Shown here piece by piece: positions 13,918 to 28,945 of a stretch of 64,000 nucleotides of DNA. This DNA is from Cylindrodendrum hubeiense (lineage: Eukaryota; Ascomycota; Sordariomycetes; Hypocreales; Nectriaceae), in the NCBI GenBank assembly GCA_014621425.1, contig JAANBB010000022.1:186001-250000 (forward strand). The letters run 5' to 3'. Under the pieces are notes generated by a model, which searched no databases, had not been told where the DNA came from, and saw nothing but the letters and a program-made list of their open reading frames with translations. Positions within the stretch are counted from its first letter, which is position 1; the number at the start of each line of letters is the position of its first letter. The position numbers and the translations under genes were made by a program.

Positions 13918-16900
13918 CTATTCTGAGTGTGCTATATCCCCACGGTTTGATCTCCGCCAGCGGGTTGGGATTAATCTAGCTACAATGCGACTCCGACGGT
14001 TCGGTTGTGCTTTGTGTGACGTTTCAGCGCCTATACTAGAGGCAGAGCTGGGTCCTGAAGGTCTATGATCGGGTAGATCAGGCCGTGAGACTTTTTGCCT
14101 GATGTTGATTAGCATGGAGGAAATATTCCTGCATGGCACACTATCCTGCCCATATATTTTTTCAAAGCCGGATTGTGCACGAATATAGTACTTTTCGGCC
14201 TCTTCTAGTCTGTTCAGAGTATGGAAAAGCCTTCCAAGGTTATGGAGTGTTTTGAGCGCAGGGGGGTAGGTGTTGACATTAGGTCCCAAGGCCTTCTCGT
14301 AGCCTTGAAGTGCTCGATCATATATCGCCTCGGCTTCACTAAATCGGCCTTGGGCTTTATAGAGAAGACCAAGATTGTTGGCTGTGTCAAGCGTTGATGT
14401 ATGGTCTGGTCCATATGCCTTCCCTCTGCCTTGAAGTGCTCGATTATACAGCGTCTCGGCTTCGCTATATCGGCCTTGGCTTTCATAGAGAATACCGAGA
14501 TTGTTGGCTGTGTCAAGCGTTGACATATGGTCTGGTCCACATAACTTCTCTCTGCCTTGAAGTGCTCGATCATGCATCGCCTCAGATTCACTGTATCGGC
14601 CTTGGTTGAAATAGAGAAGACCGAGATTGTCGACTGTACCAAGCGTTAATGTATGGTCTGGTCCCCATGCCTTCTCGAAGCCTTGAAGTGCTCGATTATA
14701 CAGCGTCTCGGCTTCGCTACATCGGTCTTGGCTGAAATACAGAACACCGAGATTGCTGACTGTATTAAGTGTTGACATATGCTCTGATCCCAATGCCTTC
14801 TCTTTGCCTTGAAGTGCTCGATTATACATCTCTTCGGCTTCAACAAATCGGCCTCGGGCTTTATAAAGAATACCGAGATTGTTGACTATGTCAAGCGTTG
14901 ACATATAGTCTGGTCCATATACCTTCTCGAAGCCTTGAAGCGCTCGATTATACAGCGTCTCGGCTTCGCTATATCGGCCTTGGCTGACATACAGAACACC
15001 GAGATTGCTGACTGTATTAAGTGTTGACATATGCTCTGATCCCAATGCCTTCTCTTTGCCTTGAAGTGCTCGATTAAACATCTCTTCGGCTTCAACAAAT
15101 CGGCCTTGGGCTTTATAGATGATCCCCAAATTGTTGATTATGTTAAGGATCGATGCATGTTCTGCTCCCCGTACCTTCTCATAGCCTTCAAGTGCGCGAC
15201 AATACATCGCCTCGGCTTCGTTATATCGGCTTTGGTCCTCGAAGACACTCCCGATTCTAGACTGAATCCATCCGTAGTCACCTTCAACTTGTGTACCAAG
15301 TTCGATCAATTGCGACGAGCAAACGTCTACGTGTAAAAGTAGACGTCGCTGCACTAGCCAGTCGTTCTCCTGCTCTCGCTCGGGTATGCGTGATGCAACA
15401 CAACTAAGAGCCAGTGCAATCAGCTTTCCCTCCCGTTCTGCTTTGAGTGTATGCTTCATCCATGCGTGCACACACTCATGAACGCTGTACCCTCTGGAAT
15501 CAACTTCCCACTGTTTTTGATCTGCTTCCACAAGTCCATGGCTGCACAGCACTCGCATAACTTCATCAAACGATATATGGTCTTGCACTATATCCTTGAA
15601 CCACAATGGCACATCCTCCCCTTCGTATTGGAGCAGTTCGTACCACAAGTCCTCATTATCAAAGTAGGCCCAGAGGTGGAGCATCATTGCTGCTGCATGA
15701 TTCCTCTGTTTGATCTGCCTATACGAAATATCCCATGTCGAATACATCGCTCGATTCTCGTATGACAATAGTGCTGGTGTCTTTTTCTGTAGTCGCAGCC
15801 ATGATTCTTGATATTGCTTAAGGTATTCTGCACAACTTGTTGAAACCTGACTCAAGTAAGCCCCAGCGGTTGCTAGAGCAAGTGGTAACCCTTCAAGCTT
15901 TTGGGCAAGTGCAATAGCTGCATCATCTTGAATATTTGTTAGCCTTAGCGTTGACTGTTGCTTCACTCGCCTTACCGTTCTCAATATCATCCCTCCGTGA
16001 GTTAGAACGCAATACCGCTAAGCTATCCTCGACTTCGGTAAACTTCTTAAGAAATATGGACTCGCCAATGCGAATCTCAGATGATCTAGTAGCGATGATG
16101 ATGGCTCCTTGATAGTTCTCCGGGAAGAATGTGCGGATATCGTAAGCCTTTGTCAGTGTTGTCGCCTCTTCAGCAGACTGCTCATCGACCCCGCGGTTTG
16201 TGTTTTCCTCGTCGTTTACACTCCAATCTTCCCTGGCTAATTTTGGATTATCGTAATTATCAAAAACTAGAAGCCAACGATCATTGTCAGGCTCATCGAG
16301 CCAACGCTTGACAGCCCGTATGATTTCGTGAGGACCTTGGCTTGCTATGGCAGTCTTGATGAATAGCAAGGCGGGGTACTGGCGAAGGATTTTCTCCGCA
16401 GCTCTGTAAAAGCTCTGCTGCAGCGATATCTCGTCGCTTGCGTTCAACCAAATAGTCGCTGAATAGTTGGTGTGGTAGTTCTTCAAATACTTTATAACCA
16501 ATTGAGTTTTGCCAATACCACCTAGTCCATGTAGAATAATAGAACGGCGTCCTTCGGATTTGTTAAGCGCGCGATGTATCTGTGCAAGCTCATCTTTCCT
16601 ACCAACGAATTCGTGGACGTCGGTGACTCCTGATAGACTGAAAGCGAGTGTATATTCCTTTGTGATGTGACCTATTTCTAATGTTAGCAAAAAGGTTCAA
16701 GGTATTGTGATCATGATGCTACCACATACATGTCACTGCAGGCACCCAATATTCCAAGAAGGCCTTTGTGCATGCTGCCGCCGTTGCCGCCGCATACCGC
16801 TGCCACCCCTTCGCCTTATGGCTGTCGGCGTAATCACAGGCACCTTTGATCACGATACAGGGGAAGGTATCCCACATTCCAGCACCTTCCATCTCGAAGC

Positions 16901-17690
16901 CGATAACACCCTCCTGTCGTGCGATATTATCGCGCTCCTCTCCGTCCTTCATCACTGTATCCCCAGACGCAATCAAGCCGAAGTGGACAGCTGGCTGTGG
17001 GATACCTTGATCGAGACGACGGCGCCTAACGAGCTCACCGTTGCAACCGCACTCTTCGCAACTCTCTCCGTCTTCAATATGTCGATAATTTGGGTCAAAT
17101 AACCTGTCATTCGCGATGCTTGGATACTCTGCTTCTAGCTCAGGCTCTTTCTGAATCTCATCAAGATGGCCAGCCAGCTTGCCACTAAGTTTCTTCTTAT
17201 CATGCATGCCACCCAACTTCGCTAATAATGCGCGGATCTCTGTATTAGGTCTCCCCAACGAGTCTAGGAGTGTATCTTTTCGCATAAAGCGCTCTGGAAG
17301 CCGCCGCCCGAAATCGTACTGGATGACACCGGTACTCACGATGACGTCCCCGAGGATAATCTCATTCTTGGTTTTGGGTACAATGGGGACGGCACCACAA
17401 ACGCCAACGACAAGAGCTAGTCTGATATTGGGAAAGCTAGAACGGCAGTTAGACGCAACCGCCGCAGCATTGATCTTTCCCATACCAAGCATGTGGGCGA
17501 GCACAACATTATGACGACCGACAAGTCCTGCAGAGTAGGCGTTTGGATCGCCTGAAGTCTTATCGTAGGGGGGTCCGTCGTCTTCCCAATCGCGGTCGAA
17601 GAGCTCTCGAACAGCGTCTGCTTCGATGCTGAGGGCGCATATGATAGCAACCTCAAAGTCGAGACGAGTGGCAGGCCGTCTGGGTGTCAT
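13918..17690 (-). CDS. NLR-type protein: nucleoside phosphorylase domain, NB-ARC, TPR repeats
   Basis: Fungal STAND receptor, probably of non-self recognition or regulated cell death. Exons are 16730-17690, 15976-16671 and 13918-15926. Introns are 16672-16729 (GTATGT...TAG) and 15927-15975 (GTAAGG...AAG, with CTAAC branch); the joined frame is 1221 residues. Domains in order: a PNP_UDP-like fold (about 1-320; FEVAIICAL, GKINAA, GFEMEGAGM, KGACDYAD); NB-ARC (P-loop LHGLGGIGKTQ, Walker B WLLVFDNYD, ATRSSEI, GLPLALATAGAY); then about eight kinesin-light-chain-type TPRs of 42 residues. The TPRs are very alike in protein and DNA, as in high-turnover fungal recognition repeats. An in-frame ATG at 17804 would add a hydrophobic extension; I prefer 17690 because the family fold starts right after it. 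Key catalytic and nucleotide-binding motifs look intact. Confidence 0.9.
14200..15230 (-). repeat. tandem 126-bp TPR-coding repeats with a 252-bp higher-order unit
   Basis: About eight 42-codon units share the frame pattern N-R-A-L-Q-G plus NNLG-[IV]-LY. Two alternating unit types make a 252-bp period: the tract near 14761 and the tract near 15013 match for about 80 bp with only one to three differences. Such similarity points to recent duplication or gene conversion. Confidence 0.85.
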
Positions 17691-19892
17691 GTCGTTTGCA
17701 ATGTTGAGCGATGTAGTAAGAGATTCCCTTTGAAATGCGGCTTTAATGGAAGATGAGGAACTGAGCAAGAAGGCAAAAGCAAGGTTGTCAGCCAGCGGGT
17801 GCATTTGACGCGCAGCCTCGTGCGGCTGAAGTTGTTATTTCAAACACAGGTGGCCTCAGGCTTTAGTTCGGATATCGGTGGAATTTAATTCCATCTGTCA
17901 CAAAGTGACTCTGTAATCAAGCAGCTTAGCAGAGCCCAGAATTTGTTACTCGCCTCTGTAACGGTCTATTAACACATCCAAAAACAGTAAGTCAAAAAGG
18001 AAGGCAATGATCATCACCGCTATACATCGCCGCAACATAACCTAAATGCCAAACATTTATTGCTATCATCTATCATAGGTCAGACTAGAACTCACTTCCC
18101 GTTCTGATACTAACAAAAAACACGGACGTATTATTTAACGCAGTAAAAGACTACAGTAAAATGTGGTGAGCTAGCTGATTAGTGTTGGCGATTACCTATG
18201 CACTGTCACGGAGCGGGTGGACGACTGAGCGGACGGCTGCAAGAACGGTGTAGGGTGTTGCCCCCCAAGCAATATCCTGAGCACAGCCTGATTCGGATAT
18301 GGAACTGGGCTCGTTTCTTCCAGTTAGAAAAGGCGGCCACGGGTTCTAGGTTTTGGTAACCCAGGATGTTAGCTTGGCGGAGGAACGAGACCTTCCCTAG
18401 CCCCCCTAGCAGAGCCTGTTGTTATTTTATTTCTGTATTATCTGTATTAATTCGCATTTTCCCCGATTTTTCTCTGCTGTTAGTCGCGCCCGAGTCTTTG
18501 AGGTCGGGATTTACATCACTTCATTCACGGTTTTCAACGCCTTGCCAACGCGAAGACCAACTTTCTTTCAGCCCAAGCACCTAATTAAATGCTTTCCTTC
18601 CTTTTGAACCAAGAATCAAGAAGTTACAGCCGATAGCTCCAGCTGTGGCCTACGCACATACCCGACCCAGGTAGACTTGCTGACGACACTTGACTGGGGA
18701 TTTCTGTGGGAGGGGACTTATTTGGTGTTGGGCTACTATCCTTTTCCGCCGCTTCATTAGATCATAGACTTAGTTCAGAAAGCTACCCAGGGTTCAGAAA
18801 GCTACCCAGGAAAAGTGCATACAAACAAGTTTGTTTTTTTAATACACTAGCAATGTTACACACCCTTACCATCCTGTGCGTCGAACGAATATGCGTACGA
18901 CTACGGTTTATCAATAGCTAGTCTCCGCCGCGTGAATTGGCAACACATTAATGGGCATGTTTTGTCCATATTAAGCTACAATTGCTAACCATAGCTTGTT
19001 TGCCTATACAAGACCTTTAGAGGATTGCGATAGAATCGCTCGGGAGACGTCAGCATCTCGCGTGGCGCGTTGGTGTCGATGAATCTGACGGCGTGCTCCG
19101 CGTCCAAGCCCAAATTTTGAAATCCGAGAAACGTGTCAAGAATTCCCTGGCGTTTTCTCGCGCCATCCCGGTCGCCCATCACCGAATTGATTCTCTTCCA
19201 CTTCGCGGCCTCGCGGATTTCCTCCTCGTCCAGATTCATCCCGGGGTGGACAGACACGCCGGGCGCTTTCACCACTTCGGTGGCTCGCGGCTGCGCCGTG
19301 TCGAGCGCCAGCATGAGCTAGTCAGTCTCCTTGGGCACTTTTGGCTTTGGCCGCACGATCTTTCATCCGACTTTGTGCTTTGTTGTTTCTAAAATCCTGG
19401 ATGGATTCAGCAGCCCGTCGGGACTGTTGGGATACGCCCCCAGAGATTACAAGGGACGTCATCGACGATGGCCTCGACAGCCCGGAAGTTCAGGGCTGCG
19501 CCGTCTGCATTTGATCCCTTGCACACTTTTACCTTGATAAGATGGTAACGACGCGAGAGAGAATTGTCGGGAGGTAGAATACCCATGTTCAATGCCGTGC
19601 CTAGTTCTCGTTCAAGTGGAGTAAGAGGGTCAACGAAACAATAAGCAGAAATATATTGTGCGGAGCACATTGCAAATATAGTCTATAATACGAAGTTCTC
19701 ACATCCATTACAGTGCTAGGTACATGTTAAGGCTACTCTTTCGCGATCATCCAGCTATCGGTGTCCTCCTGCTTCTTGTCCCGCTTTATTTTCCCCGTGA
19801 TACTGTAGAGCGTATACGGTCTTGGTCAAGTATGACACGGCTGCGTCGGGCATCTTCAGCTCCGTTACGTGACTAATGGCAGAGCCCTTTGG
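17691..19892. other. intergenic region with small possible ORFs
   Basis: Upstream region of the NLR gene followed by 1.2 kb with no convincing gene, then the weak ORFs near 18985-19670. An 18-bp direct duplication (core CAGAAAGCTACCCAGG) is at about 18774-18810. Confidence 0.4.
18985..19314 (-). CDS. small hypothetical protein (weak)
   Basis: A 109-codon open frame rich in charged residues, protein-like in composition (PGMNLDEEEIREAAKWKR) but unrecognised. A second minus-strand frame at 19407-19670 lies upstream and could be another exon, but I found no splice pair that joins the frames cleanly. It could be a fragment of a decayed gene. Confidence 0.25.
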   Translation of the reverse strand: MLALDTAQPRATEVVKAPGVSVHPGMNLDEEEIREAAKWKRINSVMGDRDGARKRQGILDTFLGFQNLGLDAEHAVRFIDTNAPREMLTSPERFYRNPLKVLYRQTSYG

Positions 19893-28786: not shown

Positions 28787-28913
28787 AGCAATTTGGCGCA
28801 GTGGAAGCGCGGTATGTTTAGGCTCCAACCATCAACGTCATCGGTTCGAAAACTAATTCATCCCAGCCGGGCTCATAACCCGGAGGTCGCACGATCGAAA
28901 CGTGCAATTGCTA
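28787..28913 (+). tRNA. initiator tRNA-Met (CAT) interrupted by a 55-nt insert between D-arm and anticodon arm
   Basis: Without the insert (28812-28866) the gene is a perfect 72-nt initiator tRNA: a 7-bp acceptor stem AGCAATT/AATTGCT with A1-T72, D-stem GCGC/GCGC, anticodon arm CCGGG-CTCATAA-CCCGG, T-arm GCACG-ATCGAAA-CGTGC, and discriminator A. Initiator identity follows from the A1:U72 pair, the GGG:CCC anticodon-stem pairs and A at positions 54 and 60. All stems pair fully, so this is not a decayed copy. Normal eukaryotic tRNA introns lie one base 3' of the anticodon; this insert is before the anticodon stem. No CCA is encoded, as expected. Confidence 0.88.
28812..28866 (+). other. spliceosomal-type intron inside the initiator tRNA gene
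   Basis: The insert starts GTATGT, has ACTAAT 17-22 nt before the end, and ends CCCAG. It is 55 nt long, the same size and signals as the protein-gene introns in this window. It splits the tRNA after nucleotide 25. A promoter B-box-like GGTTCGAAAAC lies inside it at about 28843-28853. That the spliceosome removes it is inference. Confidence 0.65.
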
Positions 28914-28940
28914 AGCACTATGCCTCTTCGAGGTCATTTC

Positions 28941-28945
28941 TTTTT
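28941..28945 (+). terminator. RNA polymerase III terminator (T5)
   Basis: The first run of at least four T after the tRNA, 27 nt beyond its end. Longer T runs follow at 28954 and 28960-28968. Confidence 0.5.

Follow-up and report, generated by a model that had tools for sequence, protein, structure and literature searches.

The 127-nt element at positions 28787–28913 of the window (the whole stretch of DNA analysed, 64,000 nucleotides) is very probably one of six working genes found for the cytosolic initiator tRNA-Met; on sequence evidence it would carry a U2-type spliceosomal intron after tRNA position 26, to be removed by the spliceosome from a Pol III transcript. Nuclear tRNA introns are taught as belonging to one pathway, in which an insert in the anticodon loop is processed by the tRNA endonuclease. 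The first-pass annotation of this DNA had suggested that a tRNA precursor made by Pol III may be spliced by the spliceosome; that suggestion is now supported from several directions—the interruption of 6/6 initiator genes found, the pattern of divergence between them, an intron in a U6 gene of the same genome, and complementarity of the splice signals to host U1 and U2.

Anatomy of the interrupted gene

The gene divides into 25 nt, 55 nt, and 47 nt, exactly at the boundaries first proposed for it. Its features, all on the plus strand, are as follows (the basis of each assignment is given in parentheses).

28787–28811, plus strand: exon 1, comprising the acceptor 5′ strand and the D arm and ending at tRNA position 26 (ARAGORN cloverleaf; identical in 6/6 copies)
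28794–28804, plus strand: A-box region TGGCGCAGTGG, uninterrupted (sequence, box consensus)
28812–28866, plus strand: 55-nt GT-AG intron, inserted after position 26 where the D arm meets the anticodon arm (sequence, ARAGORN, alignment)
28812–28817, plus strand: 5′ splice site GTATGT, invariant in 6/6 copies (alignment; the host U1 5′ end pairs at 6/8 positions)
28852–28857, plus strand: branch-site motif ACTAAT (ACTAAC in the other five copies), with the predicted branch A at 28856 (alignment; host U2 GUAGUA pairs at 5/6, A bulged)
28864–28866, plus strand: 3′ splice site CAG; one of the other copies has TAG (alignment)
28867–28913, plus strand: exon 2, comprising the anticodon arm, T arm, and acceptor 3′ strand (ARAGORN; identical in 6/6 copies)
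28874–28876, plus strand: anticodon CAT (ARAGORN)
28893–28901, plus strand: B-box/T-loop region GATCGAAAC, uninterrupted, with the initiator-type A54 (sequence)
28920–28937, plus strand: predicted 3′ trailer hairpin, ahead of the terminator (structure prediction)
28941–28945, plus strand: likely Pol III terminator of five T, the first run of at least four T (sequence)

Joining 28787–28811 to 28867–28913 gives a 72-nt tRNA-Met(CAT), and the ARAGORN drawing, with all stems paired and the CAT anticodon placed in a full cloverleaf as in a eukaryotic initiator tRNA-Met, agrees with the initial proposal that removal of 28812–28866 leaves an initiator. Eukaryotic initiators are marked by A1:U72 and by three G-C pairs that border the anticodon loop. 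The joined tRNA has A1:U72, a CCGGG/CCCGG anticodon stem (with three G-C pairs beside the anticodon loop), and A54 in the T loop; A54, within A54-U55-C56, is an initiator feature (PMC3978253). The ViennaRNA minimum-energy fold of the bare, unmodified 72-mer differs from the cloverleaf, which is taken as a limit of the computation.

In their interrupted form, none of the six genes is recognized as a tRNA by ARAGORN unless an anticodon-loop intron is allowed, and allowing one produces contradictory identities (Leu, Val, Asp) for six genes with identical exons. We rejected a tRNA-Val, -Leu, or -Asp with a canonical intron on these grounds, identical exons being assigned three identities and all six alternative anticodon stems being drawn with a mismatch. 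A group I or II self-splicing intron is likewise out, at 54–59 nt as against a catalytic core of hundreds of nt, and with no Rfam family in the window. The lack of any Rfam family at the gathering cut-off in the window (0 found) neither supports nor opposes the tRNA reading.

Splice signals and the tRNA endonuclease

We searched the host genome (a 47.5 Mb assembly of 798 contigs, which may be incomplete) with the 127-nt gene and obtained six matches on four contigs: C135 (the window), C23 (two, inverted), C13, and C113 (two). The insert lies at the same site, after tRNA position 26, in 6/6 initiator genes found. Intron lengths are 54, 55, 56, 56, 57, and 59 nt; the interiors drift, and the parts kept in all six copies are essentially GTATGTT, CTAAY (as ACTAA(C/T)), and most of the tail up to YAG. 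The donor is GTATGT in 6/6 copies, CTAAY is present in 6/6, always placing the branch A at 11 nt from the intron end, and the acceptor is CAG in five and TAG in one; the GTATGT, ACTAAT, and CAG originally noted in the 55-nt insert are all there with this spacing. No shuffle of the window insert (0/200,000) combined a GTRNGN donor, a suitably placed CTAAY, and YAG.

These signals can be read against the spliceosomal RNAs of the host. Host U1 has ATACTTACCT at its 5′ end in both loci fetched (2/2, out of four matches, all four below the Rfam cut-off), and the donor pairs with U1 ACUUACCU at 6/8 positions, with two mismatches. Host U2 carries GTAGTA in 2/2 loci, and the branch site pairs with GUAGUA at five of six positions, with one mismatch and the A bulged. 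Branch and acceptor are 6–36 nt apart in fungal introns according to section 3.2 of PMC5832005, a range that includes the 11 nt of the initiator introns; the same section gives the consensus of fungal U3 introns as mostly GTRWGT, RCTRAC, and YAG. The likeness in length to local protein-gene introns that the first-pass annotation had pointed out also holds, at 55 nt against 47–74 nt in 10 candidates of the window (19 raw candidates were reduced to 10 by dropping overlaps and any that also read open when unspliced; the script itself required GTRNGN, CTRAY, and YAG, and only the lengths and the joining of frames are informative).

Two further properties of the introns carry less weight. TTTT is absent from all six, and shuffles hold it in 16–33% per intron, so that avoidance of TTTT is only suggestive. 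B-box-like words occur within the introns (GTTCGAAA in 4/6, GATTCGAACCC in one), and in two of six introns the best B-box-like site is elsewhere, at the donor end; such scores were matched by 46 to 2060 of 20,000 shuffles per intron and are not counted as evidence.

An alternative agent of removal is the tRNA splicing endonuclease (SEN), which might cut away from the canonical position, as with tRNAs of red algae and nucleomorphs, tRNA ligase then joining the halves; we regard this as improbable. SEN itself is probably active in the host: an Rfam tRNA alignment of 10 selected loci contains nine tRNAs, eight of them with an insert, and 8/8 inserts fall in the anticodon loop. The remaining fetched nuclear tRNAs are either intronless or have anticodon-loop introns (by ARAGORN, exact boundaries vary), and the endonuclease pathway thus probably coexists with the route proposed here. 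The initiator insert shares with canonical introns (position 37/38, SEN endonuclease plus ligase) the interruption of a nuclear tRNA gene, but it differs from this type, which coexists in the genome, in lying after position 26, leaving the anticodon loop intact, and in bearing spliceosomal signals. C. merolae and nucleomorphs have non-canonical tRNA introns (PMC4090602 section 5), and these resemble the initiator insert in being eukaryotic tRNA introns outside the anticodon loop; beyond those two, section 5 of the same article presents non-canonical eukaryotic tRNA introns as rare and mostly supposed pseudogenes. Bulge-helix-bulge motifs seem critical in C. merolae (again section 5 of PMC4090602), whereas the initiator genes have none of good quality. 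The 3-4-3 motif (3-nt bulge, 4-bp helix, 3-nt bulge) that can be drawn at the initiator junctions achieves three of four central pairs, but contains an A.G mismatch (by-eye reading), makes only two of three outer pairs (the same in 6/6), and would form at the expense of the D and anticodon stems. An intron stem pairing 25–32 with 73–80 is formable in 97.6% of cells, but with no two-sided change. What is conserved is instead GTATGT, CTAAY, and YAG, and SEN does not require any of these.

Certain other tRNA loci deserve record. The C23:66000–75000 region (L082; read in L002) holds several tRNA-Ser(GCT) genes beside the inverted initiator pair, some with and some without an 11–12-nt anticodon-loop insert (ARAGORN). 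A pattern for elongator tRNA-Met found nine places, six of them the initiators and three without a tRNA by ARAGORN or Rfam. Organelle-like tRNAs are abundant on C360 (loci L008, L018, L019, L036), three tRNA-Met(CAT) among them, and this contig is probably mitochondrial.

Exon constancy and the search for intact copies

No uninterrupted initiator gene came to light in three genome searches (with the 127-nt gene, an anticodon-arm pattern allowing up to three mismatches, and a D-arm pattern allowing up to two). Each of the two patterns found 10 places, namely the same six genes and four poorer places, and none of the eight poorer places is a tRNA (seven are without tRNA by ARAGORN and Rfam, and one is a decayed fragment). 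The joined 72-mer is absent from every fetched locus. The first-pass annotation had named several intact initiator genes elsewhere as part of what would count against its reading; none was found, and 6/6 of the genes found carry the insert. A genome-wide search with the intron 3′ end gave eight places, five of which are initiator genes (the window copy was too different to match); the other three are without a tRNA by ARAGORN and lack a GTRNGN donor 40–120 nt upstream. The exact exon-1 tail followed by GTATGT occurs 0 times in viral contigs and 0 times in bacterial or archaeal contigs, which says little given those hosts.

Alignment of the six genomic copies reveals that 72/72 exon columns are invariant. 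If the identity of the intron middles is taken as the neutral level, the probability of seeing no exon difference at all would be 8e-4 to 1e-18 (four of 15 pairs computed, the least diverged pair, at 29/32, included); the comparison is one of six paralogues of a single genome, four of which have clearly related introns. Gene conversion is hard to reconcile with this pattern, since it would have to leave a drifting intron between two identical exons. By sequence comparison, purifying selection appears to act on the exons of the interrupted genes, and such selection despite the intron implies that the intron is removed. The combination of invariant exons, drifting interior, and fixed donor, branch site, and acceptor further supports the spliceosomal reading.

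The same data bear on whether these loci are dead insertion copies or tRNA-derived repeats, with a working initiator gene elsewhere or missing from the assembly. An assembly in 798 contigs may be incomplete, and the general tRNA (RF00005) search scored 63 of 1339 candidates (at least 61 matches), such that a divergent uninterrupted initiator gene could escape; a decayed fragment of an interrupted copy does also exist, at C113:211248. Against this, the exons are perfectly kept at six loci spread over four contigs although the introns drift, neither pattern search yielded an intact copy, and the joined 72-mer is missing from all loci fetched. The "dead insertion copy" that the first-pass annotation had held out as its alternative is therefore rejected as very unlikely.

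The decayed fragment itself (C113:211248–211267) consists of part of the intron 3′ end and part of exon 2; it adjoins an intact interrupted copy and has no Rfam match.

Table 1 of PMC6108506 lists for A. niger two tRNA-Met genes of 72 bp with no intron, leaving unstated whether they are initiator or elongator; if either is an initiator, the initiator intron would not be general in such fungi.

Proposed Pol III transcription, U6, and possible consequences for initiation

The intron lies between an A box and a B box that are both intact, and a T-run ends 26–36 nt after the gene in all six cases. Minimum-energy folds of five of six precursors keep the acceptor, D, anticodon, and T stems and display the intron as an extra arm (by-eye bracket reading); in the sixth (C23, minus strand) the D stem is lost. 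A trailer stem is predicted in the six initiator genes, and equally in 11/11 tRNA-Asp(GTC) genes (L025–L035) and some other tRNAs, and so is not special to the intron. The tRNA-Asp and initiator trailer hairpins differ in stem sequence yet stay paired, and sit between the mature tRNA end and the T-run; their mean z is −1.69 in the six initiator genes, as compared with −0.76 in 54 other nuclear tRNA genes.

We propose that Pol III would transcribe the gene from its intact A and B boxes to the T-run, that U1 and U2 would recognize GUAUGU and CUAAY in the transcript, and that the spliceosome would then excise the 54–59 nt as a lariat in two steps, joining the D-arm half to the anticodon/T-arm half. 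One feature counts against such a scheme: spliceosomal 5′ exons are not usually as short as leader plus exon 1 would be here, nor uncapped. Since coupling to Pol II and capping normally help splicing, the spliceosome might instead act on a longer transcript made by Pol II and containing the gene, with no Pol III transcript entering the spliceosome at all. The uninterrupted A and B boxes and the T-run ending 26–36 nt past 6/6 genes argue against this, as do the U6 introns, for which S. pombe offers a described precedent and the host a likely one, leaving it a most improbable explanation.

The first-pass annotation had pointed to mRNA-type introns in some yeast U6 genes, which are also Pol III genes, and this parallel is borne out twice over, by the case described in S. 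pombe and by an example in the host. Of the two U6 snRNA loci in the genome, C41:36727–36888 (L048) carries an mRNA-type intron and C450:12981–13083 (L047) does not. The C41 insert reads GTGAGT...TACTAAC...CACAG and lies inside the conserved core (GAAGAT/TAGCATGG); it also contains a B-box-like GTTCGAGCC, whose score is reached by 387 of 20,000 shuffles. Spliceosomal removal from a Pol III RNA is thus known, and likely in the host fungus. Fungal U6 introns (S. pombe and others) resemble those of the initiator genes in being short GT...CTAAC...AG introns of a Pol III gene, but U6 RNA is a part of the spliceosome rather than a tRNA, and of the two host U6 loci just one has the intron, as against 6/6 initiators found.

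Each of the 47 5S genes scored, out of 2450 candidates, aligns over its full 120 nt without an intron, and by eye no mRNA-type intron is evident in the single SRP RNA match or the single RNase P RNA match.

The U3 snoRNA is a Pol II product in fungi. Fungal U3 introns are spliceosomal-type introns in a small non-coding RNA, with a consensus and branch distance similar to those of the initiator introns (PMC5832005 section 3.2), though the host RNA differs; the abstract of that article calls U3 a Pol III product. Group I introns of bacterial tRNA-fMet (Gloeobacter, Synechocystis) likewise sit in an initiator tRNA gene (PMC8450103), but differ in being self-splicing and in the anticodon loop (same source).

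If the initiator introns are indeed spliceosomal, mRNA-type introns in Pol III genes would extend from U6 to tRNA, giving tRNA biology a new intron class: the spliceosome would process an essential Pol III tRNA, and translation initiation would depend on the splicing of initiator tRNA. We consider it likely that every cytosolic initiator tRNA would have to pass the spliceosome, that mRNA-splicing capacity would set initiator supply, and that the introns of these genes would form a class of their own among nuclear tRNA introns, not processed by the endonuclease pathway, with a built-in, possibly regulatory, link between splicing and initiation. The genes would offer a natural system for how an uncapped Pol III RNA with a 25-nt exon gets spliced. 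They also expose a blind spot of ARAGORN, by which such genes are missed or called tRNA-Val, -Leu, or -Asp, and similar genes elsewhere may have been overlooked. Among the matches listed in the open-licence PMC literature, none describes a tRNA with a spliceosomal intron, in keeping with the first-pass annotation, which knew of no described case in an initiator tRNA.

The host's 5S rRNA genes are dispersed over many contigs, in at least 47 places, with some head-to-tail pairs 183–193 bp apart (start to start); from this dispersal and the gene content of the window, we take the host to be likely a filamentous ascomycete. The window also carries HET-domain, Zn(2)-Cys(6), P450, and homogentisate dioxygenase genes, a fungal context. 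On its minus strand, at 13918–17834, three ORFs follow in a row with candidate introns at the joins: one with a phosphorylase domain, a middle one that by eye looks nucleotide-binding, and one with TPR repeats. They are possibly one NLR-like gene.
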